Below, one piece after another: positions 12,074-44,035 of a stretch of DNA of 64,000 nucleotides. The stretch covers positions 930,001 to 994,000 of the forward strand of contig NZ_CP031425.1 of NCBI RefSeq assembly GCF_003367705.1, in the 5' to 3' direction. The notes under the pieces were generated by a model, which ran no database searches, had not been told where the DNA came from, and was given only the letters and a program-made list of their open reading frames with translations. The position numbers were made by a program, and so were the translations under genes. Every line of letters starts with the position of its first letter. Within the stretch, counting starts at the first letter, position 1. This DNA comes from Microbacterium foliorum (GTDB taxonomy: Bacteria; Actinomycetota; Actinomycetes; Actinomycetales; Microbacteriaceae).

Positions 12074-13018
12074 GTGACCACCGCCGATCCCACGCTGCCG
12101 CTGTCTCCGTACCGAGAGATCGGCCGTGAGGAATGGGCGCGGTTGGCCGCGGGACTCGACCAGCCGCTGACCGAGACCGAGGTCGTGGAGCTGCGCGGCA
12201 TCGGCGATCGACTCGACCTCACCGAGGTGCGCGAGGTCTATCTGCCGCTGAGTCGCCTGCTCAGCCTCTATGCGACCTCGACCAAGCGACTGGGGGCGGC
12301 GACGAGCTCGTTCCTGCAGGAGGACGACACCACCACGCCCTTCGTGGTGGGGGTCGCGGGTTCGGTCGCCGTGGGCAAGTCGACCATCGCCCGTCTGCTG
12401 CGGGAGCTGATGAGCCGCTGGCCGGGTACGCCGCGGGTCGAGCTGGTGACGACGGACGGATTCCTCTACCCGAACGCAGAGCTCGCGCGCCGCGGCCTCA
12501 TGGATCGCAAGGGATTCCCCGAGTCCTACGACCGCCGAGCCCTCATCGACTTCCTCACCGAGGTCAAGAGCGGCGCCGCCGAGGTGCGTGCCCCGTTCTA
12601 TTCGCATATGCGATACGACATCGTTCCCGACGCCCGCGTGGTCGTGCGTCGACCCGACGTGGTGATCGTCGAGGGGCTCAACGTGCTGCAGCCGCCCGCG
12701 GCGCCCAACGACGTCGCGGTGAGCGACCTCTTCGACTTCTCGATCTTCGTCGACGCCGACACCTCGCACATCGAGAAGTGGTACGTCGACCGCTTCCTCG
12801 CGCTGCGGCAGGGCGCCTTCTCGAACCCGTCGTCGTACTTCAACGTGTTCGCTCACCTCACCGACGAGGAGGCGATCACGACGGCACTCGGATACTGGAA
12901 CGAGATCAACATGCCGAACCTCGTCGAGAACGTGATGCCGACCAAGCACCGCGCGCGCCTGGTGCTCAACAAGGGTGTCGACCACAGCGTCGAGAGCGTG
13001 CTGCTGCGCAAGCTCTGA
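12074..13018 (+). CDS. coaA: Type I pantothenate kinase
   Basis: Phosphorylates pantothenate, the first and usually rate-setting step of coenzyme A synthesis. The 314-residue length fits type I (CoaA) enzymes. The P-loop GSVAVGKST lies near residue 95 and is followed by [13 protein letters not shown], the RKGFPESYD segment and [10 protein letters not shown], all characteristic of the family. The start is GTG with a TANNNT box immediately before it and no leader. It stands alone, divergent from ppx and followed by the separate glmS promoter. Confidence 0.95.
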
Positions 13019-13083
13019 GACGCCGCATCCGCGTCGCCCCGGCTCGGGCGGGTTCGTTCGGCACCTTCGCAAACTCCCGCGCT

Positions 13084-13089
13084 TATTCT
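13084..13089 (+). promoter_or_regulatory. -10 box for a leaderless glmS transcript
   Basis: TATTCT ends 7 nt before ATG 13097. There is no room for a ribosome-binding site, and no glmS-ribozyme-like leader can exist on such a transcript. Confidence 0.45.
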
Positions 13090-13096
13090 TGACCCC

Positions 13097-14944
13097 ATGT
13101 GTGGAATCGTCGGATACGTGGGCCCGCGGCCCAGCCAGGACATCCTTCTCGCGGGCCTCGCCCGTCTCGAGTACCGGGGCTACGACTCCGCCGGCGTCGC
13201 CGTGATCGACCGCGACGGAACCCTCGGTATGCGCAAGAAGGCAGGCAAGCTCGCGATGCTGCGGGACTCCCTCGCCGACGCCCCGCTGCCTGACGGAAGC
13301 ACCGGGATCGGACACACCCGCTGGGCGACGCATGGTGGCCCCACCGACGAGAACGCGCACCCGCACCTCGCCGACGATGACCGGCTCGCGGTCATCCACA
13401 ACGGCATCATCGAGAACTTCGCCGTCCTGCGCGACGAGCTGCTCGCCGACGGCGTGCGTTTCCGCAGCGAGACCGACACCGAGGTCGCGGCCGCTCTTCT
13501 CGGTCGCGAGTACCGCTCGAACGGCGGCGACCTGCAGCTCGCCTTCCGCGGCGTCGTCAACCGTCTGGAGGGGGCGTTCACGCTCCTCGCGATGCACCAG
13601 GACCACCCCGGACTGGTCGTCGGGGCCCGCCGCAACTCTCCGCTGGTGATCGGTCTCGGCGAGGGCGAGAACTTCCTCGGATCCGACGTGGCCGCCTTCA
13701 TCGAGCACACCCGCAAGGCGCTGGCCATCGGTCAGGACCAGATCGTCTCGATCACCCCGGATGCCGTCACCGTGACCGACTTCGGCGGCACCCCCGTCGA
13801 GGCCGAGCCGTTCGACGTCTCGTGGGACGCCGCCGCCGCCGAGAAGGGCGGCTGGTCGAGCTTCATGGCCAAGGAGGTCTCCGAGCAGCCCGAGGCCGTC
13901 GCGAACACGATCCGTGGCCGCATCCGCGGCGATCAGGTCGTGATCCCGGAGCTCGAGGGACTCGACGACCTGTTCCTCGGCATCAACCGCATCATCATCA
14001 CCGCCTGCGGCACCGCATCGTACTCGGCGCTCGTCGGCAAGTACGCGATCGAGCAGTGGGCGCGCGTGCCCGTCGACGTCGAGCTCGCCCACGAGTTCCG
14101 CTACCGCGACCCGGTGATCGGGGCCGACACGCTCGTCGTGTCGATCAGCCAGTCGGGCGAGACCATGGACACCCTGATGGCCGTGAAGTACGCGCGGGAG
14201 CGCGGCGCCCGCACCCTGTCGATCTGCAACACCCAGGGGGCCACGATCCCGCGCGAGTCGGATGCCGTGGTCTACACCCACGCCGGCCCCGAGGTCGCGG
14301 TCGCCTCCACGAAGGCGTTCTCGGCGCAGATCACCGCTCTGCTGCTGCTCGGTCTGCACATGGGTCGTGTGCGCGGCGCCGTCGAGGACGCATCGGCGGA
14401 CGTCGCCGAGCTGCTGGCCCTTCCCGAGAAGATCGCGAAGGTGCTCGAGAGCGAACACGATCACGTCAGCCAGCTGGCGGGCTGGATGGCGGACACCCGC
14501 TCGGTCCTCTTCCTCGGCCGCCACGTGGGCTTCCCGATCGCCCTCGAGGGTGCGCTCAAGCTCAAGGAGATCTCCTACATCCATGCGGAGGGCTTCGCGG
14601 CGGGCGAGCTCAAGCACGGCCCGATCGCCCTGATCGAGCCGGGGCAGCCGGTCTTCGTCCTCGTGCCGTCGCCGCGGCACTCCGCAGTGGTGCACTCGAA
14701 GGTGGTCTCCAACATCCAGGAGATCCGCGCTCGCGGCGCTCGCGTGATCGTCGTCGCCGAAGAGGGCGACGCGGCCGTTCTGCCGTTCGCCGACGAGGTC
14801 ATCCGCATCCCGCTCGCCGGTGCGATGTTCGAGCCGCTGCTCGCGGTCGTGCCGCTGCAGGTGTTCGCGATGGCGCTCGCGACGGCGAAGGGCCTCGATG
14901 TCGATCAGCCGCGCAACCTCGCGAAGTCCGTCACGGTCGAGTAG
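13097..14944 (+). CDS. glmS: Glutamine-fructose-6-phosphate aminotransferase (isomerizing)
   Basis: Makes glucosamine-6-phosphate from fructose-6-phosphate and glutamine. 615 residues. The N-terminus MCGIVGYVG carries the catalytic Cys2 of the class II glutaminase domain (to about residue 220), with HTRWATHG and HNGIIENF around its glutamine pocket. Two SIS sugar-isomerase domains follow: TACGTASYSALVGKY with SQSGETMDT in the first, and LFLGRHVGFPIALEGALKLKEI in the second. The C-terminus DQPRNLAKSVTVE is the conserved flexible tail. It supplies the substrate for GlmM encoded upstream. Confidence 0.97.
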   Translation: MCGIVGYVGPRPSQDILLAGLARLEYRGYDSAGVAVIDRDGTLGMRKKAGKLAMLRDSLADAPLPDGSTGIGHTRWATHGGPTDENAHPHLADDDRLAVIHNGIIENFAVLRDELLADGVRFRSETDTEVAAALLGREYRSNGGDLQLAFRGVVNRLEGAFTLLAMHQDHPGLVVGARRNSPLVIGLGEGENFLGSDVAAFIEHTRKALAIGQDQIVSITPDAVTVTDFGGTPVEAEPFDVSWDAAAAEKGGWSSFMAKEVSEQPEAVANTIRGRIRGDQVVIPELEGLDDLFLGINRIIITACGTASYSALVGKYAIEQWARVPVDVELAHEFRYRDPVIGADTLVVSISQSGETMDTLMAVKYARERGARTLSICNTQGATIPRESDAVVYTHAGPEVAVASTKAFSAQITALLLLGLHMGRVRGAVEDASADVAELLALPEKIAKVLESEHDHVSQLAGWMADTRSVLFLGRHVGFPIALEGALKLKEISYIHAEGFAAGELKHGPIALIEPGQPVFVLVPSPRHSAVVHSKVVSNIQEIRARGARVIVVAEEGDAAVLPFADEVIRIPLAGAMFEPLLAVVPLQVFAMALATAKGLDVDQPRNLAKSVTVE

Positions 14945-15011
14945 CCCACGCCGGCGCCGGCGCCCGTTCCCGCTCTCGTTCTCGGCCCTCCGTCTGCGGT
15001 GCCCCGGCCGT

Positions 15012-15083
15012 ATGGCTGACAGTTCCCCGCCTGGCTGAACCGGAGTGTGCTCGAGGTCAGCCATGGGGGAATCCTCCAGCCAT
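15012..15083. repeat. 72-nt imperfect palindrome, left copy (GGCTGA/TTCCCC repeat family)
   Basis: Three blocks pair across the element: ATGGCTG 15012-15018 with CAGCCAT 15077-15083, TTCCCC 15023-15028 with GGGGAA 15066-15071, and TGGCTGA 15032-15038 with TCAGCCA 15057-15063, leaving a loop of about 18 nt. It ends 6 nt before the stop codon of the DUF559-type gene. A second element of the same length lies on the other side of that gene at 16024-16095. Confidence 0.7.
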
Positions 15084-15088
15084 CCGGC

Positions 15089-15937
15089 TCATGAGCGCGC
15101 CCGAGCGAGCGCGCCCGAGATCGCGGCGATCACGACGCTCCACTCGTGGATGATCATGGCGTAGTCGAAGCGGAGCGTCTCGAATCCCAGACGGGATGCC
15201 GCGGCATCCCGAATCAGGTCACGATGGCGTTCGGAACGGCCGGCGTGGTTGTCCTTGCCATCGGCTTCGAGGATGACGCGCCTCTCCACGACGAAGTCGA
15301 CTCGCCCGACCCCGTCGATCGACACCTGTGTCTCCACCCGGATGCCGAGCAGATGCAGCCGCAGTCGGACGATGGACTCGAGCCCGCTGTCTGCATCATG
15401 GCGTGCGATGTCGGCAAGCCACCGAGCGCGCACCGGAAGAGCTGCACGGATGCGGCGCCTCGCGTCTGCGCCGATCAGGCCCAGCGCCCACGCCGACTCG
15501 TATGCGGCGAAGAAGAACTCCTCGCCGTGACATCCGAACGCCTGCACGAGCGCCTGTTCGACCGGGGCGAGTCCCAGTCGCATCGAGCCCGCACGGTAGT
15601 GCTCGACGCACTCGCAGTGGGCATGCGGATGCCTTCGTCCGGCGAGACCGAGCCACACATGAGGATGCTCGTCGTCGGCGAGAACCCAGACCCCGTGCAT
15701 GCGCAGCGCGCCGGAACAGGAGAGCGCACCCCCGTGCAGGGCGGCGGTTCGCACACTCCCTGCGCATGACGGCGCCGCGAACACCCCGGCGCGCACCCGG
15801 GACAGCGCGCCGCGCCGCACCGCGTCGGAGAGGTCCTTGCGTGTGCATCCGAATCGCGCGAGCCGTGACCCGCGGGCGACTCCGCCCTGCAGTTCGACGA
15901 GCATCAGAGGTGTGGGCATCCGCCGATCCTCGTTCAT
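15089..15937 (-). CDS. AbiEi-antitoxin-like/DUF559 (Vsr-fold endonuclease-like) protein
   Basis: About 282 residues from the ATG at 15937 (AGGGG lies upstream); ATG 15919 is an alternative and 15997 is also open. The N-terminal 50 residues (TRKDLSDAVRRGALSRVRAGVF) resemble the winged-helix domain found at the start of AbiEi-type antitoxins. The C-terminal 110 residues match DUF559-type PD-(D/E)XK nucleases: ESIVRLRLHLLG, then VGRVDFVVERRVILEADGK with the candidate catalytic Asp and E-x-D-G-K, then RHRDLIRDAA and LRFDYAMI. Such genes are common singletons in Microbacteriaceae and their role is unproven. Two palindromic repeats of one family flank it. Confidence 0.7.
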   Translation of the reverse strand: MNEDRRMPTPLMLVELQGGVARGSRLARFGCTRKDLSDAVRRGALSRVRAGVFAAPSCAGSVRTAALHGGALSCSGALRMHGVWVLADDEHPHVWLGLAGRRHPHAHCECVEHYRAGSMRLGLAPVEQALVQAFGCHGEEFFFAAYESAWALGLIGADARRRIRAALPVRARWLADIARHDADSGLESIVRLRLHLLGIRVETQVSIDGVGRVDFVVERRVILEADGKDNHAGRSERHRDLIRDAAASRLGFETLRFDYAMIIHEWSVVIAAISGALARARS

Positions 15938-16023
15938 CCGTCGACCCCTGGTCACGGAGAATGCCGTGATCTGGGGACACTCTCTGCGGCCGTGCATCTG
16001 GGGAGGAGCCGTGGCACGGCCGG

Positions 16024-29180: not shown

Positions 29181-33269
<4,089 letters not shown>

Positions 33270-33280
33270 GCGACACGAAG

Positions 33281-33312
33281 AAGGGGCCGGATGCGATCGC
33301 ATCCGGCCCCTT
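33281..33312 (+). terminator. Terminator of guaB
   Basis: Bases 33281-33312 form a perfect 32-bp palindrome whose arms read AAGGGGCCGGATGCGA and its complement, beginning 11 nt after the guaB stop. Confidence 0.9.
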
Positions 33313-33362
33313 CGTCGTTGCCCGCGAAGACGCCCGTATATGCGAGTATCTAGTTACAACCG

Positions 33363-33440
33363 CTCGACTTCCCCTCGAGCTCCCGGCGCGAAGAGCGCAG
33401 GGGGTGGCACGCCGGATCCCCAGTCCGGCAGGGGACCTCC
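33363..33440 (+). promoter_or_regulatory. Possible structured leader of the REC-deacetylase/glycosyltransferase operon
   Basis: Three consecutive hairpins can be drawn: CTCGA 33363-33367 with TCGAG 33375-33379; GCGC 33386-33389 with GCGC 33395-33398; and GGGGGT 33400-33405 with ACCTCC 33435-33440 enclosing CCGGA 33412-33416 with TCCGG 33424-33428 and a symmetric 6x6 internal loop. The first loop (TCCCC 33370-33374) can also pair with GGGGA 33431-33435 as a pseudoknot. I do not recognise a riboswitch class, and chance folding in GC-rich DNA is possible. Confidence 0.4.
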
Positions 33441-33458
33441 CCATTGAGAGCCGCACAC

Positions 33459-34502
33459 ATGCCTCAGGATGCCCCACGCGTCCTGGTCGTCGATGACGAC
33501 CCCGACGTCGCCCTTCTTGTGAAGACCGTTCTCGAGAGACGAGCCGGATGCGAGGTCGTGCTCGCCCACGACGGACGCACCGCCGTCGAGCGACTCTCGA
33601 CGTTCACTCCCGATGTGGTCGTGACCGACATCGAGATGCCCGGCCTCGACGGACTCGAGCTGCTCGCCGAGCTGCGCCAGGCCGATCCGCGCCTTCCCGT
33701 GATCGTGATGACCGCCCACGTCTCCGTCGAGTACGCGGTCTCGGCGCTCCGCGCCCAGGCCGACGAGTTCCTCACCAAACCGCTCGACAACGCCCGTCTG
33801 GTCGAGGCCGTCACGCGGCTCGTCGCGGAGGGACGCGCGCGCAAGGAGGCGAGCCGCCCGCGCGAGGTCGTGCTCGCGATCGGTGCGCACCCCGACGACG
33901 TCGAGATCGGCGTGGGCGGCCTGCTCGCCGCCCACGCCCAGGCGGGCGACGAGATCACGATCCTCACGCTCTCCCGCGGGGCACGCGGCGGAGACGCCGA
34001 GAGCCGCCAGCACGAGTCGCTCGCCTCCGCCGAGATGCTCGGGGCGAGACTGTTCGTCAAAGACCTCGTCGACACGGAGATCTCCGGCGGCGGCGCCACC
34101 GTGCGGCTGATCGAGGAGGTCGTCGCGGAGGTCCAGCCGACCATCGTCTACACGCACTCCTCGAATGATCGGCACCAGGACCACCGCGCCGTCAGCGAGG
34201 CGACCATCGCGGCCACCCGCCGCGTCGGGACCGTCGCGTGCTACCAGAGCCCCTCTGCCACCATCGACTTCCGCCCGACCCGCTTCGTGCGCATCGATCA
34301 GTACATCGGGCACAAGCTGCGTCTGCTCGAGTGCTTCGGATCGCAGACGGCGACCCGCGACTACCTCGAGCCGGAGTTCGTCACCGCGACGGCGCGATAC
34401 TGGTCGCGCTTCGGCGGGGGAGTGGCGATCGAGCCGCTGGAGGTCATCCGAGAGACCGCCGAGTTCATCGGCGCCCACGAACTCACACGTCTGGAGAACT
34501 GA
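33459..34502 (+). CDS. Response-regulator receiver domain fused to a PIG-L-family deacetylase
   Basis: 347 residues from ATG 33459 (TTG 33444 is also in frame). Residues 7-125 are a complete receiver: acidic pocket D12-D14, phosphoacceptor D57 in VVVTDIEMPGLDG, T85 and K107. No DNA-binding domain follows. From residue 135 the protein is a PIG-L/GlcNAc-deacetylase-type zinc hydrolase with AHPDD at 143-147 and HQDH at 239-242, the family metal ligands. Such enzymes remove acetyl groups from GlcNAc-containing substrates. Phosphorylation of D57 presumably switches the hydrolase. First gene of a seven-gene overlapping operon that also encodes a kinase. Confidence 0.85.
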   Translation: MPQDAPRVLVVDDDPDVALLVKTVLERRAGCEVVLAHDGRTAVERLSTFTPDVVVTDIEMPGLDGLELLAELRQADPRLPVIVMTAHVSVEYAVSALRAQADEFLTKPLDNARLVEAVTRLVAEGRARKEASRPREVVLAIGAHPDDVEIGVGGLLAAHAQAGDEITILTLSRGARGGDAESRQHESLASAEMLGARLFVKDLVDTEISGGGATVRLIEEVVAEVQPTIVYTHSSNDRHQDHRAVSEATIAATRRVGTVACYQSPSATIDFRPTRFVRIDQYIGHKLRLLECFGSQTATRDYLEPEFVTATARYWSRFGGGVAIEPLEVIRETAEFIGAHELTRLEN

Positions 34503-35491
34503 TGACCGCACGCGTACTCGTCACCGGAGCAGGCGGACCCGCCGGTGTCGCGGTGATCCGCTCGCTGCTTCGGCGCTCCGACCTCGAGGTCTTCGCCGCC
34601 GACATGGACGGCTGGGCGAGCGGGATCTACCTGGTGCCCGCGTCGCACCGGCGGCTCGTCCCCCCGGGTCGCGACGAGGACTTCGTCCCCGCGATCACGC
34701 GGATGGTCGCCGACGACCGCCTCGATCTCGTGATCTCGACGGTGGACGTCGAGCTGATCGCCCTCGCCGGACGCCGAGACGAACTCGCTCCCGCCGTGCT
34801 CGCCGCCCCCTCGCAGGACACCCTCTCGGTGGCACTCGACAAGATGCTCCTCGCCGAGCGGTGCGCGCCGACCGGGCTCACCCCGCGCACGGTGCTCGCC
34901 GGACCCGATGCGCAGGCTGTGGACTGGGAGTTCCCGGTGTTCGCCAAGCCGCGCCAGGGCGCGGGCAGCCGAGGGATCCGGCTGGTTCCCGACCGTGCCG
35001 CCCTCGACGAGCTCCCGACCGATGAGGGACTCATCGTGCAGGACTTCCTCCCCGGCGAGGAGTACTCGGTCGATGTGATCGCCGACGCCTCGGGAGCGGT
35101 CGTCGCCGCGGTGCCGCGCACCCGTGCCAGGGTCGACTCCGGTGTCGCGATCGCCGGACGCACGGTGCACGACGCCGAGCTCGAGGATGCCGCCGCCGAG
35201 ATCGCCAGGGCGATCGGTCTGGTCGGTGTGGCCAACGTGCAGCTCCGCCGCGATCGCGCCGGGCGTGCCGTGCTGCTCGAGGTCAATCCGCGATTCCCCG
35301 GAGCGCTCCCGCTCACCATCGCGGCGGGCGTGGACATCCCCTCGCTGGTCGCCGACCTGTTCCTCGGCCGCGACCTCCCCGCGACGGTCGCGTTCCGCGA
35401 GGTCGCCTCGGTGCGGTACCTGGAGGACATCATCGTCGAGGTCGACGACATCCTCATCTCCGATCACGCGGGGCACCAGGAGGAGCTGTGA
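34502..35491 (+). CDS. ATP-grasp family ligase
   Basis: 329 residues from ATG 34502, overlapping the previous stop by one base (TGATG). The N-terminal ARVLVTGAGGPAGVAVIRSLL is a Rossmann-like pre-ATP-grasp domain; the middle has VFAKPRQGAGSRGIRLV (ATP-binding lysine and Gly-rich loop) and LIVQDFLPGEEYSVDVI; the metal site is VLLEVNPRFPGALPLTIAAG with the E-x-N-x-R motif. It resembles carbamoyl-phosphate-synthase-like ligases that join a carboxylate to an amine via an acyl phosphate. The substrate is unknown; a role in decorating a glycan or its precursor is inferred from context. Confidence 0.82.
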   Translation: MTARVLVTGAGGPAGVAVIRSLLRRSDLEVFAADMDGWASGIYLVPASHRRLVPPGRDEDFVPAITRMVADDRLDLVISTVDVELIALAGRRDELAPAVLAAPSQDTLSVALDKMLLAERCAPTGLTPRTVLAGPDAQAVDWEFPVFAKPRQGAGSRGIRLVPDRAALDELPTDEGLIVQDFLPGEEYSVDVIADASGAVVAAVPRTRARVDSGVAIAGRTVHDAELEDAAAEIARAIGLVGVANVQLRRDRAGRAVLLEVNPRFPGALPLTIAAGVDIPSLVADLFLGRDLPATVAFREVASVRYLEDIIVEVDDILISDHAGHQEEL

Positions 35492-36201
35492 CCCACCCCC
35501 TGCTGCGCGGCGACCACCACGTCCACTCGACGTTCTCGGACGACGCCGTCTCGACGCTCGCCGAGAACGTCGCGGCGGCCGCTGCGGTGGGACTCGAGAC
35601 CGTCCGCCTCGTCGATCACGTGCGCCGGTCGACGACCTGGGTTCCCGAGTACCTCGAAGCCGTGCACGCGCTGCAGGTGCCCGAGGGGCTGACGGTGCTC
35701 ACGGGCGTCGAGGCGAAGATCCTCGACGCGTCGGGCGAGCTCGACATCCCCGCGCTGCCTCGCGGAATCGACCGCATCCTGATCGCCGACCATCAGTTCC
35801 CCGGGCTCGACGGGCCCCTCGGCCCGTCGGCGGTGCGGGAGCGCATCGCCGAGGGCTGGTCGACCGACGACGTGCTCGACCAGTTCGTCGCGGCGCTCAT
35901 CGCGGCGATGCAGCGCCACCCGGGCAATCAGCTCGCGCACTGCTTCTCGCTCCTGCCCAAGATCGGTCTGTCCGAAGACGATCTGGGGGTCGAGCGCATC
36001 GGCGCGTGGGCGGCGGAGGCCGCCCGGACCGACACGATGGTCGAGGTCAACGAGAAGTGGGTGTGCCCGGGGGTGACCGTGCTCGATGCGCTGCGCGACG
36101 CCGGAGCCGTCATCGTGGCATCGACCGACAGCCATGTCGCCGCCGACGTCGGTCGCTATCCGCGTCTCACCGCACTCCTCGACGGCGGGGACGCACCCTG
36201 A
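35488..36201 (+). CDS. PHP-domain metal-dependent phosphoesterase
   Basis: 237 residues, GTG start overlapping the ATP-grasp gene by 4 nt. The PHP metal ligands are present: GDHHVHSTFSDD at residues 8-19, LVDHVRR, TGVEAKIL, ADHQFPG, and near the end STDSHVAADVG. The layout matches histidinol-phosphatase-like PHP enzymes that cleave phosphomonoesters. His biosynthesis is unlikely here given the neighbours, so a sugar-phosphate or glycan precursor is a better guess. Confidence 0.82.
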   Translation: MTHPLLRGDHHVHSTFSDDAVSTLAENVAAAAAVGLETVRLVDHVRRSTTWVPEYLEAVHALQVPEGLTVLTGVEAKILDASGELDIPALPRGIDRILIADHQFPGLDGPLGPSAVRERIAEGWSTDDVLDQFVAALIAAMQRHPGNQLAHCFSLLPKIGLSEDDLGVERIGAWAAEAARTDTMVEVNEKWVCPGVTVLDALRDAGAVIVASTDSHVAADVGRYPRLTALLDGGDAP

Positions 36202-37688
36202 TGCCCGTCCTGAACGGTGTCGAGACCGCGGTCGTGGTCGTCCTGCTCCTGTGTGTGCTGGTGGGCACGCTCCCGGTGATCAACACCGCGCTGCAGTTCC
36301 TCGTCCTGCCCCTGCACGCATTCCGCAACCACTACGGCAAGGCCGTGCCGTACCACCCGACGGTCGCGGTCCTGATCCCCGCGTGGAACGAGGGTCTGGT
36401 ACTCGGCCAGGCGATCGATCGACTGACCCAGCTGGAGTACCCGGCAGATCGACTGCGCATCTTCGTCATCGACGACGCCTCGACCGATGACACTCCCGCA
36501 GTGGTCGCGGCCAAGGCTGCGGCGTACCCGGGGCGCGTGGTGCATCTGCGGCGAGACCAGGGCGGTCAGGGCAAGGCGCATACCCTGAACCACGGCCTCG
36601 ATGTCGTGCTCTCGGACGACTGGACCGAGGCCGTGCTCATCATGGATGCCGACGTCATCTTCGCGCGCGACTCGCTGCGGAAGATGAGCAGGCACCTCGC
36701 TGATGAGAAGGTCGGGGCGGTGACCGCGTACATCGCGGAGGGCAGCCGCGACCGCAACTACCTCACGCGCTTCATCGCGATCGAGTACGTGATCAGCCAG
36801 CTCTCGGCGCGCCGCGCCCAGAACGTGGGCGGCGCGATCGCCTGCCTCGCCGGCGGAGCGCAGCTGCACTCGCGCGCGAACCTCGAGGCGATCGGCGGAC
36901 GGATCCCGGTCGGCACTCTCGCCGAGGACACGATGACCACCTTCGAGGGGCAGCTGGCCGGGCGGCGGATGGTCTTCGAGCCGCACGCGGTGGTGCTGGC
37001 AGAGGAGCCGCGCGCCATCGACGGCCTCTGGAAGCAGCGCCTGCGCTGGGCCCGTGGCAACGTGCAGCTGACATCGATCTACCGGCATCTGTGGTTCCGC
37101 CCGAGCACGGTGCACAACCTGGGCAGCTTCGCGTTCGGGCTCGCGTGGTTCACGATCCTGCTCCTTCCGGCGTTCATGATCCTCGCGGCCTCCGCACTGC
37201 TCGTGCTGCTGCTCCTGCACAGCGACATCGCAGAGTTCGTCTTCCGGTTCATGTGGATCTTCGCCGCCTGCGTCCATCTCTTCTCGATGCTGTTTGCGGT
37301 GCAGCTCGACGCCCGGATCGGTCGCCAGTCCTGGCGCGAAGCCCTCATGTTCCCCGGCCTCGGTGCGCTGTTCCTGATGGCGGTAGCCCTGTTCCCGTGG
37401 CTCTTCGAAGCGGGGCTGAGCGAGCTCGGATTCGCGTTCACCGACGAGACGCGGTGGGGCTGGGCGGTGGTGTTCTATCTGTGGGGGCCACTCTCGCTGC
37501 TCGGGGTCTGGCTCGCGCGCGCGGTCGAGCCCCTGCCGGGCGGACGGTTCTTCGCGGGACTGCTGATCTATGTCTGCGGATACGGCTCGCTGCTGTGCGC
37601 CATCACCGTCGACTCGTACATCAAGGAATGGCGTCACGCCGACGCCGTATGGATCAAGACCGAGAAGATCGGACGGGTCGACTCATGA
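36201..37688 (+). CDS. Membrane GT2 processive glycosyltransferase (PgaC/IcaA/cellulose-synthase-like)
   Basis: 495 residues from ATG 36201, overlapping the PHP stop by one base. One N-terminal helix (about 8-35), then a GT-A domain with LIPAWNE, DD 91-92, the DAD motif 149-151, the catalytic base in AEDT 241-244 and QRLRW at 279-283. Four or more helices follow from about residue 295. D, DxD, ED and QxxRW together define processive polysaccharide synthases. With a PIG-L deacetylase in the same operon, a partly deacetylated GlcNAc-type polymer is an attractive but unproven product. Confidence 0.87.
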   Translation: MPVLNGVETAVVVVLLLCVLVGTLPVINTALQFLVLPLHAFRNHYGKAVPYHPTVAVLIPAWNEGLVLGQAIDRLTQLEYPADRLRIFVIDDASTDDTPAVVAAKAAAYPGRVVHLRRDQGGQGKAHTLNHGLDVVLSDDWTEAVLIMDADVIFARDSLRKMSRHLADEKVGAVTAYIAEGSRDRNYLTRFIAIEYVISQLSARRAQNVGGAIACLAGGAQLHSRANLEAIGGRIPVGTLAEDTMTTFEGQLAGRRMVFEPHAVVLAEEPRAIDGLWKQRLRWARGNVQLTSIYRHLWFRPSTVHNLGSFAFGLAWFTILLLPAFMILAASALLVLLLLHSDIAEFVFRFMWIFAACVHLFSMLFAVQLDARIGRQSWREALMFPGLGALFLMAVALFPWLFEAGLSELGFAFTDETRWGWAVVFYLWGPLSLLGVWLARAVEPLPGGRFFAGLLIYVCGYGSLLCAITVDSYIKEWRHADAVWIKTEKIGRVDS

Positions 37689-37828
37689 CCGAAGCACCTT
37701 CACGCAGCGCCGAAGAGGAGGAGATCGCGACGGATGCCCGCCGCGAGAAGCGCCTCATCCCGCAGGCGCTTCGCGCTCTCGGCATCGTCGTGGTGATCGT
37801 CATCGTGCGAGAGCTGCTGCTCCGATGA
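37685..37828 (+). CDS. 47-residue single-helix membrane protein
   Basis: ATG 37685 overlaps the glycosyltransferase stop by 4 nt, and the TGA at 37826-37828 overlaps the next start by 4 nt, so translational coupling argues for a real gene. The first 27 residues are charged (SAEEEEIATDARREKRL); the rest is one hydrophobic helix (ALGIVVVIVIVRELLLR), probably with the acidic end in the cytoplasm. It may be a small subunit of the glycosyltransferase or a link to the kinase, similar in concept to accessory subunits of PNAG and cellulose synthases. No homology is claimed. Confidence 0.65.
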   Translation: MTEAPSRSAEEEEIATDARREKRLIPQALRALGIVVVIVIVRELLLR

Positions 37829-38172
37829 GCGAGCGGCCGCTGGCCCTCGTCGTCGAGGACAGCCCGGACCAGATGGCTCTGCTGCGGAGGTACCTGGACC
37901 GCGAGGGCTTCGACGTGCTCTCCGCGGTCGATGCCGAATCCGCGATCTCGGCCTTCGCGGACATCTCGCCCCTCGTGGCCGTGATCGATCTGCTGCTTCC
38001 CGGCATCACCGGCGCCGAGTGCGCACGCCTCGTGCGGGCGCGCTTCCCCGAGTGCTATCTGATCGTGAGCTCGGTGCTCGATGAGGCCGACTATCCCGAT
38101 GCGGATGCCGCGCTGCCGAAGCCGATCGTCGGCGCGGACCTTCGACGACTGCTCGCAGAGGTACGCCGATGA
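37825..38172 (+). CDS. Stand-alone response-regulator receiver protein
   Basis: 115 residues, a receiver domain and nothing else. Acidic pair E11-D12 in LVVEDSPDQ, phosphoacceptor D55 in VAVIDLLLPGITG, and the conserved Lys in ALPKPIVG near residue 97. Single-domain receivers usually relay phosphate or act allosterically on a partner. It overlaps the kinase gene by 4 nt, which makes that kinase the likely phosphodonor. It may work in a relay with the receiver fused to the deacetylase in this operon. Confidence 0.87.
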   Translation: MSERPLALVVEDSPDQMALLRRYLDREGFDVLSAVDAESAISAFADISPLVAVIDLLLPGITGAECARLVRARFPECYLIVSSVLDEADYPDADAALPKPIVGADLRRLLAEVRR

Positions 38173-39953
38173 GGACCACCGCCCTCGTCCAGGCGAAGGT
38201 GGAGCGCGGCTGGCGACGGTACTTCGACGACCCGACGCCGCTGATGAAGCAGGCGCCGACCGCGATCGCTGTGGGCGTCGCCGCGGTTCTCGTCGCGAGC
38301 CTGCCGGGATCCCTGGTGACCTACCTCGACGCGGTGATCGTCGGGGTGTCGCTCGTCGGCCTCATGACCGTGCTCGCCGCGGTGCTGAGCGCCCGCGGCG
38401 TCTACGACGGCTGGGTGGTGATGCTGGTCCCGATGATCGACCTGCTCGGCATCGGCGCACTGCGGGCCGGCACCGGCGGGGCCACGTCGATGCTGGGTTC
38501 GCTGGTGCTGCTCCCGGTGATCTGGATCGCCGCAGCGCCGGGCTTCCGCCAGGTCTTCATCGTCGCGGGTTTCACCTCGATCGCTCTGCTGATGCCGTAC
38601 CTGGTCGATCCGCCCGTCGACCCGATCGAGTGGCTCCGCGGCATCATCGGACCGTTCGTCTTCGCCACCGTCGGGGCCATCGTGAACGAGATGTCACGGC
38701 TGCAGCGGCTGCGCACCTCGCAGGCGGAGGCGCTCGTCACCGAACGCACCGCGGCCCTCGTCGCGAACCAGGCGATGCTCGAGAAGCTGAGCGCCAGCGA
38801 GCAGCAGTACCGAACCCTGTCGGAGTCCTTCACCAGCGTCTGGAACTCGATCACCGGGCAGGCCGTGATCGCCATCGACAGCGGCGGCATGGTCTCGGCC
38901 TGGAATCCCGGTGCCGTACGTCTGCTCGGTCTGTCCGAGCACGAGGCGCTCGCAGGGGTCCGTGTCGAGCGGTTCCTCCAGCCGACGGTGCTCCGGCAGT
39001 TCGCGCCCGCGGGGGCCGAGCGTGCCGCCGATCAGGTGCATCCGGGGCTGCGGGCGCTCTTCGACGAGGCGGATGCGGGGCTGACGGTCGACACCCGCGT
39101 CGACGTCTCGACCGCGGCGGGCTCGACCGTGCCCGCGCGGGTGACGCTGACCTCGCACCAGGACACCCACGGCTCGCAGCACGGGTACCTGCTCGTCATC
39201 ACCGATGAGACACGGGCCGTCGAGGTCGCGCGCATGAAGGATCAGTTCGTGGGCATGATCTCGCATGAGCTGCGGACGCCGCTGAGCGCGATCATCGGCT
39301 TCCTCGACCTTCTGCAGAACGATCCGGCGCAACCGCTGACGGCCGACCAGCAGGAGTTCGTCGACATCATCGAACGCAATGCGCAGCGACTGCTGAACCT
39401 CGTCGGCGATCTGCTCTTCACCGCTCAGGTGGATTCGGGACGCTTCCCGCTGGAGCGCCGGGAGACCGACGTCGTCGATCTCGTCCGCGAGGCGGTGGCG
39501 TCCTCCGGGCCGCACGCGCAGCGCGAGGGGATCGACATCACGGCGGAGGTGCCTGATGCGCCCGTGTGGATCTCGGTCGACGCGGGACGGATCGGCCAGG
39601 CGCTCGACAACCTGCTCTCCAACGCGATCAAGTTCACCGGCGACGGCGGGCGCGTGAGCGCGGCCGTGCGCGTGCTCGACGGCACGGTCGAGCTCGCCGT
39701 GCGCGACACCGGCGTCGGCATCCCCGAAGACGAGCAGGGCATGCTGTTCACCCGCTTCTTCCGGGCGTCGACCGCGACCCGCAATGCCGTGCCCGGTGTC
39801 GGCCTCGGACTCACGATCACGCGCGCCATCGTGCTCGCCCACGGCGGATCGATGGAGGTGGCGAGCAGCGAAGGCGTCGGCACGGAGTTCCGGATGCTGC
39901 TCCCCGCCACCCCGCGCACCGAGGTCGTCAAGGTGGTCGACTACCGGGAGTGA
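38169..39953 (+). CDS. Membrane histidine kinase with PAS domain
   Basis: 594 residues. Five or six hydrophobic helices at about residues 29-180 form a MASE-like membrane sensor without a large extracellular loop. A short coiled region (to about 215) precedes a PAS domain (about 215-330), then HisKA with H366 in MISHELRTPLS, and a HATPase_c domain with N-box DNLLSNAIKF, G1 DTGVGIPEDE and G2 GVGLGLTIT. It is the last gene of the operon and the likely phosphate source for both receivers. The signal is unknown; PAS may bind a cofactor or small ligand. Confidence 0.9.
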   Translation: MRTTALVQAKVERGWRRYFDDPTPLMKQAPTAIAVGVAAVLVASLPGSLVTYLDAVIVGVSLVGLMTVLAAVLSARGVYDGWVVMLVPMIDLLGIGALRAGTGGATSMLGSLVLLPVIWIAAAPGFRQVFIVAGFTSIALLMPYLVDPPVDPIEWLRGIIGPFVFATVGAIVNEMSRLQRLRTSQAEALVTERTAALVANQAMLEKLSASEQQYRTLSESFTSVWNSITGQAVIAIDSGGMVSAWNPGAVRLLGLSEHEALAGVRVERFLQPTVLRQFAPAGAERAADQVHPGLRALFDEADAGLTVDTRVDVSTAAGSTVPARVTLTSHQDTHGSQHGYLLVITDETRAVEVARMKDQFVGMISHELRTPLSAIIGFLDLLQNDPAQPLTADQQEFVDIIERNAQRLLNLVGDLLFTAQVDSGRFPLERRETDVVDLVREAVASSGPHAQREGIDITAEVPDAPVWISVDAGRIGQALDNLLSNAIKFTGDGGRVSAAVRVLDGTVELAVRDTGVGIPEDEQGMLFTRFFRASTATRNAVPGVGLGLTITRAIVLAHGGSMEVASSEGVGTEFRMLLPATPRTEVVKVVDYRE

Positions 39954-40021
39954 TCGTCGTCGTCGCCCGATCCTGATAGCCTGGTCGGCTCGCCAGGCGG
40001 GCGGAAGGACGGCCACGCACG

Positions 40022-41710
40022 GTGGGATACATAGATGTGACGGGGGTCTCGCTGACCCTCCCCGACGGCAGACCTCTGCTGGACGAGGTGACGTTCCGCG
40101 TCGGCTCGGGGTCGACGAGCGCGCTGATCGGTCCGAACGGCGCGGGCAAGACCACGCTGCTGCGCATCATCCGCGGTGACCTGGCACCGGATGAGGGCGT
40201 CGTCACGATCGACGGCGGTCTCGGCGTGATGGACCAGTTCGTCGGGCACGGTGAGCCCGGCCAGACCGTGCACGAACTGCTGGTGCGGGTCGCTCCGCGT
40301 CGGATCCGTCAGGCGGCCGAGGCTCTGGAGGCTGCCGAGAACGCGCTGATCGCGCGCGACGAGCACGACACGCAGATGGCGTACGCCACGGCGATCGCGG
40401 AGTACGCGGACGCCGGAGGATACGAGCACGAGACCGTCTGGGACCAGTGCACGGTCGCGGCCCTCGGGGTGTCGTTCGATCGTGCCCGCTACCGCGAGCT
40501 CACCACGCTGTCGGGCGGAGAGCAGAAGCGTCTCGCTCTGGAGGCGCTGCTGCGCGGTCCCGACGGCGTGCTGCTGCTCGACGAGCCGGACAACTACCTC
40601 GACGTGCCGACCAAGCGCTGGCTCGAGGAGCAGCTGCGCCAGACGCCCAAGACGGTGCTGCTGGTGTCGCACGATCGAGAACTGCTCGCGCGCGGCGTCG
40701 ATCGGCTGGTGACCCTCGAGCCGGGCGGCGCCGGGGCCACGGCGTGGGTGCACGGCGGCGGCTTCTCGACGTACCACCGTGCACGCGCAGACCGGATGGA
40801 CCGCCTCGACGAGCTGCGTCGTCGCTGGGACGAACAGCACGAGAAGCTGCGCACCCTGGTGGCCACGCTCAAGGTGAAGGCGTCGGCGAACGACGGCTTC
40901 GCGTCGAGGTATCAGGCGGCCCAGACGCGTCTTCGGCGGTTCGAGGATGCCGGCCCGCCGGAGGAGAGGCCGCCCGCGCAGGACTTCGACATGCGATTGC
41001 GCGGCGCGCGCACCGGCAGACGCGCGGTGGTCGCGCAGGGGCTCGAGCTCACCGACCTGATGCGGCCCTTCGACGCCGAGATCTGGTACGGCGACCGTGT
41101 CGCCGTGCTGGGGTCGAACGGATCGGGCAAGTCTCATTTCCTCCGCCTGCTCGCCCGTGGCGGCACCGACCCCGACCCCGCGCGAGGACATGTCACCTCG
41201 ACGGGGGAGCAGCTCGAGGCCGTCCGTCACACCGGCAGGGTCACGCTGGGGGCGCGGGTCGTTCCCGGGCTGTTCGCGCAGACGCACGCGCATCCGGAGT
41301 TCGTCGGCCGCACCCTGCTCGAGATCCTGCATCGCGGCGACGAACGGCGTGCGGGGATGCCGCGCGATGCCGCCAGCTCGGCGTTGGACCGCTACGGTCT
41401 CGTGCGTCAGGCGCAACAGGGATTCGAGTCCCTGTCCGGCGGGCAGCAGGCGCGGTTCCAGGTGCTGCTGCTCGAGCTCTCGGGCGCCAGTCTGCTGCTG
41501 CTCGACGAACCCACCGACAACCTCGACATCGAGTCGGCCGAGGCGCTCGAGGATGCGCTGACCCGGTTCGACGGCACCGTGCTGGCGGTCACACATGATC
41601 GCTGGTTCGCGCGGTCCTTCGATCGGTTCCTGGTGTTCGGCTCCGACGGGGAGGTGTACGAGGCCGACGCCCCCGTGTGGGACGAGGGGAGGGTCGTGCG
41701 CAGCCGCTGA
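40022..41710 (+). CDS. ABC-F family ATPase
   Basis: 562 residues with two nucleotide-binding domains and no membrane helices. First domain: GPNGAGKTTLLR, LSGGEQKR and LLLDEPDNYLD; second: GSNGSGKSHFLR, LSGGQQARFQ and LLLDEPTDNLDIE. A charged linker of about 70 residues between them, rich in Arg/Glu, is the P-site tRNA interaction motif of ABC-F proteins. These act on the ribosome in translation rescue or antibiotic protection, not transport. The subtype is not clear. GTG start, single gene, convergent with the oxidoreductase gene. Confidence 0.88.
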   Translation: MGYIDVTGVSLTLPDGRPLLDEVTFRVGSGSTSALIGPNGAGKTTLLRIIRGDLAPDEGVVTIDGGLGVMDQFVGHGEPGQTVHELLVRVAPRRIRQAAEALEAAENALIARDEHDTQMAYATAIAEYADAGGYEHETVWDQCTVAALGVSFDRARYRELTTLSGGEQKRLALEALLRGPDGVLLLDEPDNYLDVPTKRWLEEQLRQTPKTVLLVSHDRELLARGVDRLVTLEPGGAGATAWVHGGGFSTYHRARADRMDRLDELRRRWDEQHEKLRTLVATLKVKASANDGFASRYQAAQTRLRRFEDAGPPEERPPAQDFDMRLRGARTGRRAVVAQGLELTDLMRPFDAEIWYGDRVAVLGSNGSGKSHFLRLLARGGTDPDPARGHVTSTGEQLEAVRHTGRVTLGARVVPGLFAQTHAHPEFVGRTLLEILHRGDERRAGMPRDAASSALDRYGLVRQAQQGFESLSGGQQARFQVLLLELSGASLLLLDEPTDNLDIESAEALEDALTRFDGTVLAVTHDRWFARSFDRFLVFGSDGEVYEADAPVWDEGRVVRSR

Positions 41711-42913: not shown

Positions 42914-44035
42914 GTGACCATGGAGATCGAGCTGGGCCGAGGCAAGCGCGCGCGTCGCGCGTACACGTTCGACGACATCGCGGTGGTGCCCTCGCGGCGC
43001 ACCCGCAACCCGGAGGATGTGTCGACGGCCTGGACCATCGACGCGTTCGGCTTCGGCATCCCCGTGCTCGGTGCCCCGATGGACTCGGTCGTCAGCCCGC
43101 AGACCGCGATCATGCTCGGGCAGCTGGGCGGACTCGGCGTCCTCGACCTCGAGGGGCTGTGGACGCGGTACGACGACCCCGAGCCGCTGCTGGCGGAGAT
43201 CGCCGGCCTCGACGAGGGGCAGGCGACGGCGCGCATGCAGGAGCTGTATGCCGAGCCGATCAAGCCGACCCTGATCACGCAGCGCCTCGCCGAGGTCCGT
43301 GAGGCCGGCGTGACGGTCGCCGGCTCCCTCACTCCGCAGCGCACGCAGGAGTTCTACGACACCGTCGCGGCGGCCGGGGTCGACCTGTTCGTGATCCGCG
43401 GCACCACGGTGTCCGCCGAGCACGTGTCGAGCGTCGACGAGCCGCTCAACCTGAAGAAGTTCATCTACGACCTCGACGTTCCCGTGATCGTCGGCGGCGC
43501 GGCCACATACACCGCCGCCCTTCATCTGATGCGCACCGGCGCCGCCGGCGTGCTCGTCGGCTTCGGCGGGGGAGCGGCCTCGACCACGCGGGCGACCCTC
43601 GGCATCCACGCGCCGATGGCGACGGCCGTGTCCGACGTCGCCGCCGCCCGGCGCGACTACCTCGACGAATCGGGCGGACGCTACGTGCACGTCATCGCCG
43701 ACGGTGGCGTCGGCACCTCGGGCGACATCGTCAAGGCGCTCGCGATGGGCGCCGATGCCGTGATGCTCGGCGTCGCCCTCGCCCGGGCCACCGATGCCCC
43801 CGGCCGCGGGTTCCACTGGGGTCCCGAGGCCCACCACCCGAAGCTCCCGCGCGGGCGTCGCGTCGAGGTCGGCGGCATCGGCACGCTCGAGGAGATCCTC
43901 TACGGTCCCGCGCCCGTCGCCGACGGCACCGCGAACCTGATCGGCGCGCTGCGCAAGTCGATGGCCACCACCGGATACTCCGACCTCAAGGAGTTCCAGC
44001 GGGTCGAGGTCGTCCTCGCACCCTACGAGGCCTGA
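42914..44035 (+). CDS. GuaB3-family IMP dehydrogenase-related protein
   Basis: 373 residues, shorter than GuaB because the CBS pair is missing, which is typical of GuaB3. The TIM barrel starts with KRARRAYTFDDIAVVPSRRTRN and VLGAPMDSVVSPQTA. The IMPDH catalytic loop has no GSICTT motif: at the corresponding place the chain reads GFGGGAASTTRATLG, so the Cys nucleophile of classical IMPDH is absent. [25 protein letters not shown] is retained. Actinobacteria often carry this protein beside guaB; its activity is debated. The next gene starts 17 nt downstream. Confidence 0.9.
   Translation: MTMEIELGRGKRARRAYTFDDIAVVPSRRTRNPEDVSTAWTIDAFGFGIPVLGAPMDSVVSPQTAIMLGQLGGLGVLDLEGLWTRYDDPEPLLAEIAGLDEGQATARMQELYAEPIKPTLITQRLAEVREAGVTVAGSLTPQRTQEFYDTVAAAGVDLFVIRGTTVSAEHVSSVDEPLNLKKFIYDLDVPVIVGGAATYTAALHLMRTGAAGVLVGFGGGAASTTRATLGIHAPMATAVSDVAAARRDYLDESGGRYVHVIADGGVGTSGDIVKALAMGADAVMLGVALARATDAPGRGFHWGPEAHHPKLPRGRRVEVGGIGTLEEILYGPAPVADGTANLIGALRKSMATTGYSDLKEFQRVEVVLAPYEA

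Follow-up and report, generated by a model that had tools for sequence, protein, structure and literature searches.

A receiver-PIG-L operon of Microbacterium foliorum as a candidate surface-glycan system under two-component control

Introduction

The systems that make poly-N-acetylglucosamine (PNAG) or polysaccharide intercellular adhesin (PIA), PgaABCD and IcaADBC, place a glycosyltransferase family 2 (GT2) synthase beside a small membrane partner, include a de-N-acetylase and, in Gram-negative bacteria, employ an outer-membrane protein with tetratricopeptide repeats (TPR) and a beta-barrel. A QxxRW motif is the mark of processive GT2 enzymes. Response regulators with an enzymatic output are represented by CheB and PleD, and the BshB/MshB thiol pathways have a phosphatase and a ligase as partners. 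Here we describe a seven-gene operon in a stretch of 64,000 nucleotides (nt) of the Microbacterium foliorum genome (contig NZ_CP031425.1, positions 930,001 to 994,000; the whole stretch is called the window), which joins a receiver fused to a PIG-L de-N-acetylase with a GT2 synthase and a membrane histidine kinase. We read this operon, on balance and with some reservation, as a synthase-dependent surface-glycan system under two-component control exerted at the level of enzyme activity. Its core recurs in distant bacteria, so the operon is probably an undescribed way to make and control a surface sugar coat.

Results

Gene content of the operon

Analysis of open reading frames (ORFs) in the window gave seven frames between 33459 and 39953, all on the plus strand and each with a terminal stop. 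The genes and the sites predicted in the first of them are as follows.

33459..34502, plus strand: gene 1, receiver fused to a PIG-L (LmbE) de-N-acetylase (Pfam Response_reg, 115 bits, and PIG-L, 89.8 bits)
33627..33629, plus strand: codon of Asp57, the predicted receiver phospho-acceptor, invariant in alignments of 21 and 66 rows
33888..33899, plus strand: predicted PIG-L metal motif H144-P-D-D147, conserved site residues
34173..34184, plus strand: PIG-L motif H239-Q-D-H242, conserved in alignments
34502..35491, plus strand: gene 2, ATP-grasp enzyme, carboxylate-amine ligase-like (PF15632, ATPgrasp_Ter, 110.4 bits, and other ATP-grasp models)
35488..36201, plus strand: gene 3, PHP-family phosphoesterase (PF02811; motif conservation across 66 loci)
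36201..37688, plus strand: gene 4, membrane GT2 synthase (Glyco_tranf_2_3 and other GT2 models; DAD, AED and QRLRW motifs)
37685..37828, plus strand: gene 5, 47-residue membrane peptide with one span by hydropathy and R-x-E-x-x-L before the span (by eye)
37825..38172, plus strand: gene 6, stand-alone receiver with Asp55 and Lys99 (Pfam Response_reg)
38169..39953, plus strand: gene 7, membrane histidine kinase with PAS, HisKA (His366) and HATPase_c (Pfam) and five spans by hydropathy

The genes overlap by 1, 4, 1, 4, 4 and 4 nt, in that order. An earlier, sequence-only reading of this DNA had claimed a 1- or 4-nt overlap at every junction, and all six junctions agree; the overlaps suggest that the seven genes would be made as one unit. 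The gene content that it had proposed (receiver-PIG-L, ATP-grasp, PHP, GT2, 47-residue peptide, receiver and PAS kinase) was confirmed by Pfam and hydropathy, and its statement that no transcription factor is encoded is supported by the absence of DNA-binding domains from the Pfam results for the seven proteins.

Membership of gene 1 in the PIG-L/LmbE family is indicated by PF02585 (89.8 bits against a cut-off of 28.2) together with the HPDD and HxDH motifs. Both domains were present in all 120 gene 1 matches listed, out of 3023. The two best hits of gene 1, with 91% and 88% identity, are Microbacterium proteins. All six PIG-L site residues were found in 82 of 85 loci, the exceptions being L099 and L107, where Asn replaces one His, and L126, which is cut by a contig end. 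The AlphaFold2 model of gene 1 had a pLDDT of 91.9 and a pTM of 0.77. Database names for receiver-PIG-L proteins are merely 'response regulator' or 'LmbE family', and one 496-residue protein (P0157) has an additional receiver ahead of the receiver-PIG-L.

Gene 2 matched three solved sequences (2pn1, carbamoyl-phosphate synthase and PylC), and gene 3 a single one, YcdX. The motifs of gene 3 are HxH, DH, E, H, H and DxH, a pattern which we take to be the expected metal ligands of PHP. Simple hydropathy predicted six spans in the GT2, which has a conserved C-terminal KTEK. The gene 5 peptide had no Pfam or NCBIfam match.

Kinase presence and the state of the receiver

A fused receiver was called intact when five phospho-site residues were present, a rule fixed before the result, and a kinase was counted within a range of 9 kb. 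The window receiver has the acidic pair, the acceptor Asp, the Thr/Ser and the Lys, as do the receivers in 76 of the 85 loci; L126 was set aside because of its contig end. A kinase lay in range in 72 of the 76 loci with an intact receiver, those lacking one being L058, L093 and, on short contigs, L105 and L109. None of the eight loci with an altered receiver (L113, L116, L118, L119, L120, L121, L122 and L124) had a kinase in range. After removal of three duplicate pairs, kinases accompanied 69 of 73 intact and 0 of 8 altered receivers (Fisher p = 1.5e-8; this value, like the one quoted in the Discussion for a looser rule, ignores relatedness among loci). Among PIG-L loci without a fused receiver, a kinase was found in 4 of 34. 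The sensor halves of the kinases vary; the kinases of L081, L101 and L117 match the catalytic profile and not the N-terminal one. Since the presence of the kinase tracks the intact receiver, we read its retention as reflecting selection for phosphorylation of the deacetylase.

Distribution within the genus and family

Counts for genus, family and phylum include the host genome. Gene 1 was detected in 8 of 59 genus genomes (E 1e-40), and the PHP gene in 31 of 299 family genomes (E 1e-15), covering 15 of 85 genera, and in 2 of 346 phylum genomes (E 1e-10); because few candidates were scored per genome (up to nine in the family search, eight in the phylum search and five in another), absences are not firm. 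Loci were counted by profile search of stop-to-stop translations. PIG-L, ATP-grasp and PHP genes followed one another on one strand in all 31 family loci, although PHP is present in 31 of 31 by construction, the loci having been selected by it, and the profiles of genes 1 to 4 and the kinase were built from family loci, which match by construction. The receiver was fused to PIG-L in all 31, GT2 adjoined in 26 and a kinase lay within the stretch in 30. The system is thus conserved. The order in the named Microbacterium loci L090 and L097 is identical to that in the window. The five loci without an adjoining GT2 belong to one genus, and each of these genomes has a GT2 of 56-59% identity elsewhere. 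The same gene order in relatives suggests that the arrangement is more than chance.

The operon is flanked by the IMP dehydrogenase gene guaB upstream and, downstream, by a gene with two ABC domains which we presume to be ABC-F. One genome of the genus, L161, lacks the cluster and has guaB (97% identity) approximately 0.7 kb from the ABC-F gene (91%); judged by eye, a reverse-strand ORF separates the two. It was one of four with an ABC-F match among ten genomes of the genus that lack gene 1 and were searched for it; guaB was inside the 1.5-kb flank of that gene in L161 and not in the other three. The arrangement in L161, a single case, fits gain or loss of the cluster as a block. Spread by plasmids was considered and rejected, as no GT2 match was found among 72,556 plasmid records at E 1e-60.

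Distribution beyond the family

When one genome per species was scanned with a receiver-PIG-L alignment of 21 rows, at least 547 places were confirmed. The best 80 were analysed; 46 of them (L081-L126) reached 253 bits or more with the PIG-L profile, and L127-L160 are the remaining 34. The conserved core was present in other Actinomycetota and in proteobacteria. A receiver profile stood directly ahead of PIG-L in 41 of the 46 loci, and no fused receiver was found in the 34. Within 9 kb in the 46 loci we detected ATP-grasp in 41, GT2 in 35, PHP in 29, histidine phosphatase in 6, the TPR-barrel profile in 8 and kinase in 35, some of the contigs being short and the ligase and GT2 matches of L108 being weak and on the other strand.

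PHP and histidine phosphatase were never found together (0 of 46 loci). The nine proteobacterial loci had no PHP, a histidine phosphatase in six and a TPR protein in eight; L106 and L113 had neither phosphatase, and L105 is cut by a contig end. The histidine phosphatase of L119 belongs to PF00300 (Pfam). We read this as an unrelated histidine phosphatase taking the place of PHP in most of the proteobacterial loci, which argues that dephosphorylation would be a needed step in most of the loci examined. For the TPR protein of L119, the only barrel protein modelled, an outer-membrane beta-barrel was predicted; PgaA was absent among the 50 matches listed for this model, an absence that proves nothing. 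The TPR proteins of the proteobacterial loci, with the predicted barrel, make an exported polymer likely.

Two loci outside the 46 (L127, Actinotignum sanguinis, and L129, a Propionibacteriaceae record) have a receiver-less PIG-L, an ATP-grasp, a glycosyltransferase and a nearby kinase and receiver, and may be a cousin system. L081 carries a tandem pair of GT2 copies of this family at 12990-15999.

The small membrane peptide

An ORF of 43-92 residues with a single span followed 58 of 64 GT2 genes and overlapped the GT2 by 4 nt in 56 of the 58 (L056 and L117 differ). GT2 genes without it were those of L081, L103, L111, L112, L113 and L116; L103 has a 62-residue candidate whose start lies outside the stretch tested. 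Applied downstream of the other genes in these loci, the test gave 12 of 300, made up of ATP-grasp 1/74, PIG-L 1/82, PHP 8/66, kinase 2/66, TPR-barrel 0/7 and histidine phosphatase 0/5. In seven loci without an adjacent GT2 (L048, L049, L050, L052, L054, L086 and L125) the peptide is present after PHP, so most of the control matches are probably the same gene. No peptide ORF followed the relocated GT2 in any of five genomes. Judged by its conservation, the gene 5 peptide is a real gene, and its position near GT2, PHP and signalling genes shows that it belongs to the system, contact with the GT2 being putative.

Boundaries and neighbouring genes

The operon had been placed from 33363, but positions 33363-33458 are a leader without a gene and the first gene runs from 33459, with an alternative TTG start possible at 33444. 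A scan of 33200-40060 found no sigma-70-like promoter and one terminator-like site (shuffle mean 1.0), which lies inside gene 1. One further feature lies after guaB.

33283..33310, plus strand: perfect inverted repeat of 28 nt, absent from the terminator-scan output; a role as upstream boundary would be a guess

The M. foliorum genome consists of a single 3.57-Mb contig. A second IMP dehydrogenase-like gene (PF00478) lies at 42914-44035 of the window, approximately 10 kb downstream of guaB. A carbon-nitrogen hydrolase was found within 9 kb in 22 of 82 unique loci, always on the PIG-L strand (for example L088, 9002-9823, and L110, 6982-7797), and not near the window operon; its best NCBIfam match, below cut-off, was deaminated glutathione amidase.

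Discussion

Gene content and order, active-site and phospho-site residues, the co-occurrence of kinase and receiver, the exclusive phosphatases and the conserved peptide were all read from sequence. From them we infer chemical steps, their order, a direction of gating and the nature of a polymer as follows. The membrane kinase of gene 7 would sense an envelope signal and phosphorylate Asp57 of the receiver-PIG-L, the lone receiver of gene 6 being a second target or a phosphate sink, and phosphorylation would alter the activity of the de-N-acetylase, for which the co-occurrence of kinase and receiver gives indirect support. The phosphatase (PHP, or histidine phosphatase in most proteobacterial loci), PIG-L and the ATP-grasp enzyme would make a sugar precursor by removal of a phosphate and an N-acetyl group and joining of the freed amine to a carboxylate. 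The GT2 synthase, with the small peptide, would polymerise and export the product, which the TPR/beta-barrel protein would carry across the outer membrane of Gram-negative relatives. A bolder proposal, which we hold only tentatively, is that these loci form a class of kinase-gated exopolysaccharide machines, found at least in Actinomycetota and Proteobacteria, in which a phosphorylation-switched de-N-acetylase works in the cytosol with a phosphatase and an ATP-grasp ligase to build an amide-modified aminosugar monomer, the synthase needs a dedicated single-span peptide, and control falls on the building block and not on expression or cyclic di-GMP (c-di-GMP).

An alternative is that the GT2 makes a PNAG-like poly-aminosugar, on which, possibly as a lipid-linked chain, PIG-L acts at the cytosolic face while the kinase tunes N-acetylation. 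Three of four Pga/Ica features failed; the fourth, a PgaA-like exporter, may or may not be represented by the TPR protein with a barrel predicted for L119. The GT2 scores were below one third of the PgaC/IcaA cut-off (TIGR03937, 422.3), with 124 bits for the window protein and 121.6 for that of L119, and membership in PgaC was rejected on these values. No PF01522 deacetylase of the PgaB/IcaB type was present among the seven proteins, where the search was made, and in place of a PgaD/IcaD-type partner there is the 47-residue peptide, which lacks a family match but is analogous in position. As this alternative also gives the ATP-grasp enzyme and the phosphatase no role, we consider it unlikely. 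The earlier proposal that a surface polymer of the N-acetylglucosamine (GlcNAc) type is tuned by a gated deacetylase is partly supported: our reading keeps a synthase-dependent surface glycan and does not favour a PNAG-type product. We regard as improbable a pathway in which soluble enzymes make a GlcNAc conjugate resembling mycothiol or bacillithiol and the GT2, forming no polymer, transfers sugar to a membrane lipid. The phosphatase and ligase would suit such a pathway, but PIG-L scored 87.8 bits against the BshB1 cut-off of 182.5 (TIGR04001), a TPR protein in eight of nine proteobacterial loci, with a predicted barrel in the one modelled, would be needless for a cytosolic thiol, and the GT2 carries the QxxRW motif. 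Mycothiol itself was rejected and kept only within this alternative, as the best MshC match in the host genome was 269.1 bits against a cut-off of 485.1 (TIGR03447) and there was a single PIG-L-family match; this actinobacterial host may lack mycothiol. That the genes are unrelated neighbours brought together by chance or at a variable site is scarcely credible. It would agree with their scattered occurrence (in 8 of 59 genomes of the genus and 31 of 299 of the family, host included) and with the adjoining guaB and ABC-F genes of L161, but the same order recurs across genera with differing flanking gene sizes and across phyla, which contradicts chance co-location, and the exclusive phosphatases, overlapping starts and congruent trees also speak against it.

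Several observations weigh against a surface-glycan system gated by its kinase. In five of the 46 loci (L099, L102, L107, L110 and L114) a kinase is in range but ATP-grasp and GT2 are both absent within 9 kb, so genes for the polymer half need not adjoin those of the signalling half. The kinase or a kinase-receiver set lies beside PIG-L in the first four and approximately 6 kb away in L114; L102 (5819-9339), L107 (10004-13535) and L110 (7908-17380) carry receiver-PIG-L, lone receiver(s) and kinase one after another and also lack PHP in range, and L110 shows four consecutive kinase matches. In L091 the ligase and a kinase are present without PHP or GT2, L108 has only its weak matches on the opposite strand, and L106 and L113 have neither phosphatase. 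Where the GT2 is relocated (five genomes), the peptide is not beside it but remains next to PHP and the signalling genes. No kinase was found in the stretch seen for L058 and L093, although their receivers are intact. L113, L116 and L118, counted as altered, lack only the second acidic residue and keep the acceptor Asp, Thr/Ser and Lys; under a looser rule, by which acceptor Asp and Lys suffice, kinases accompany 69 of 76 intact and 0 of 5 altered receivers (p = 3.1e-5). About three lineages account for the eight altered loci (Legionella; Rhodospirillales and other Alphaproteobacteria; Occultella and Serinicoccus); two of these loci, L118 and L122, are on short contigs. The histidine-phosphatase profile was built from five of the six loci that it found and the TPR-barrel profile from four of eight, the congruence of the trees also reflects shared organism ancestry, and examination of the best 80 of at least 547 confirmed loci is a limit of sampling.

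If the surface-glycan reading is correct, a further synthase-dependent system would be added to the few kinds known, in both Gram-positive and Gram-negative bacteria, a histidine kinase would switch a sugar-modifying enzyme directly, and receiver-PIG-L proteins would have a role. Relatives with an altered receiver and no nearby kinase would provide a natural control for gating.

Comparison with known systems

No named system with this gene set, and no receiver with a PIG-L output, was found described among the papers listed from the open-licence literature, which is in keeping with the sequence-only reading. As in regulators of the CheB/PleD type, a receiver precedes a catalytic domain, a kinase is nearby and a DNA-binding domain is absent, but the output here is a PIG-L de-N-acetylase. 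The fold and active-site residues of PIG-L are shared with BshB/MshB, which differ in the receiver fusion, membrane synthase and Gram-negative barrel protein found here and in the family score. Gene 2 exceeds the cut-off of PF15632, named for a Ter-associated pathway, but no Ter family was found when the seven proteins and eight neighbouring ORFs were scanned. For cellulose synthase (BcsA/CelA) the GT2 scored 64.4 bits against a cut-off of 699.1 (TIGR03030). The PNAG/PIA systems resemble the cluster in the parts named in the Introduction; here, however, the deacetylase is a receiver-PIG-L and not PF01522, ATP-grasp and phosphatase are extra, and a kinase stands in place of c-di-GMP control. 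By analogy, we read the cluster as working like a synthase-dependent exopolysaccharide system combined with a response regulator of enzymatic output.

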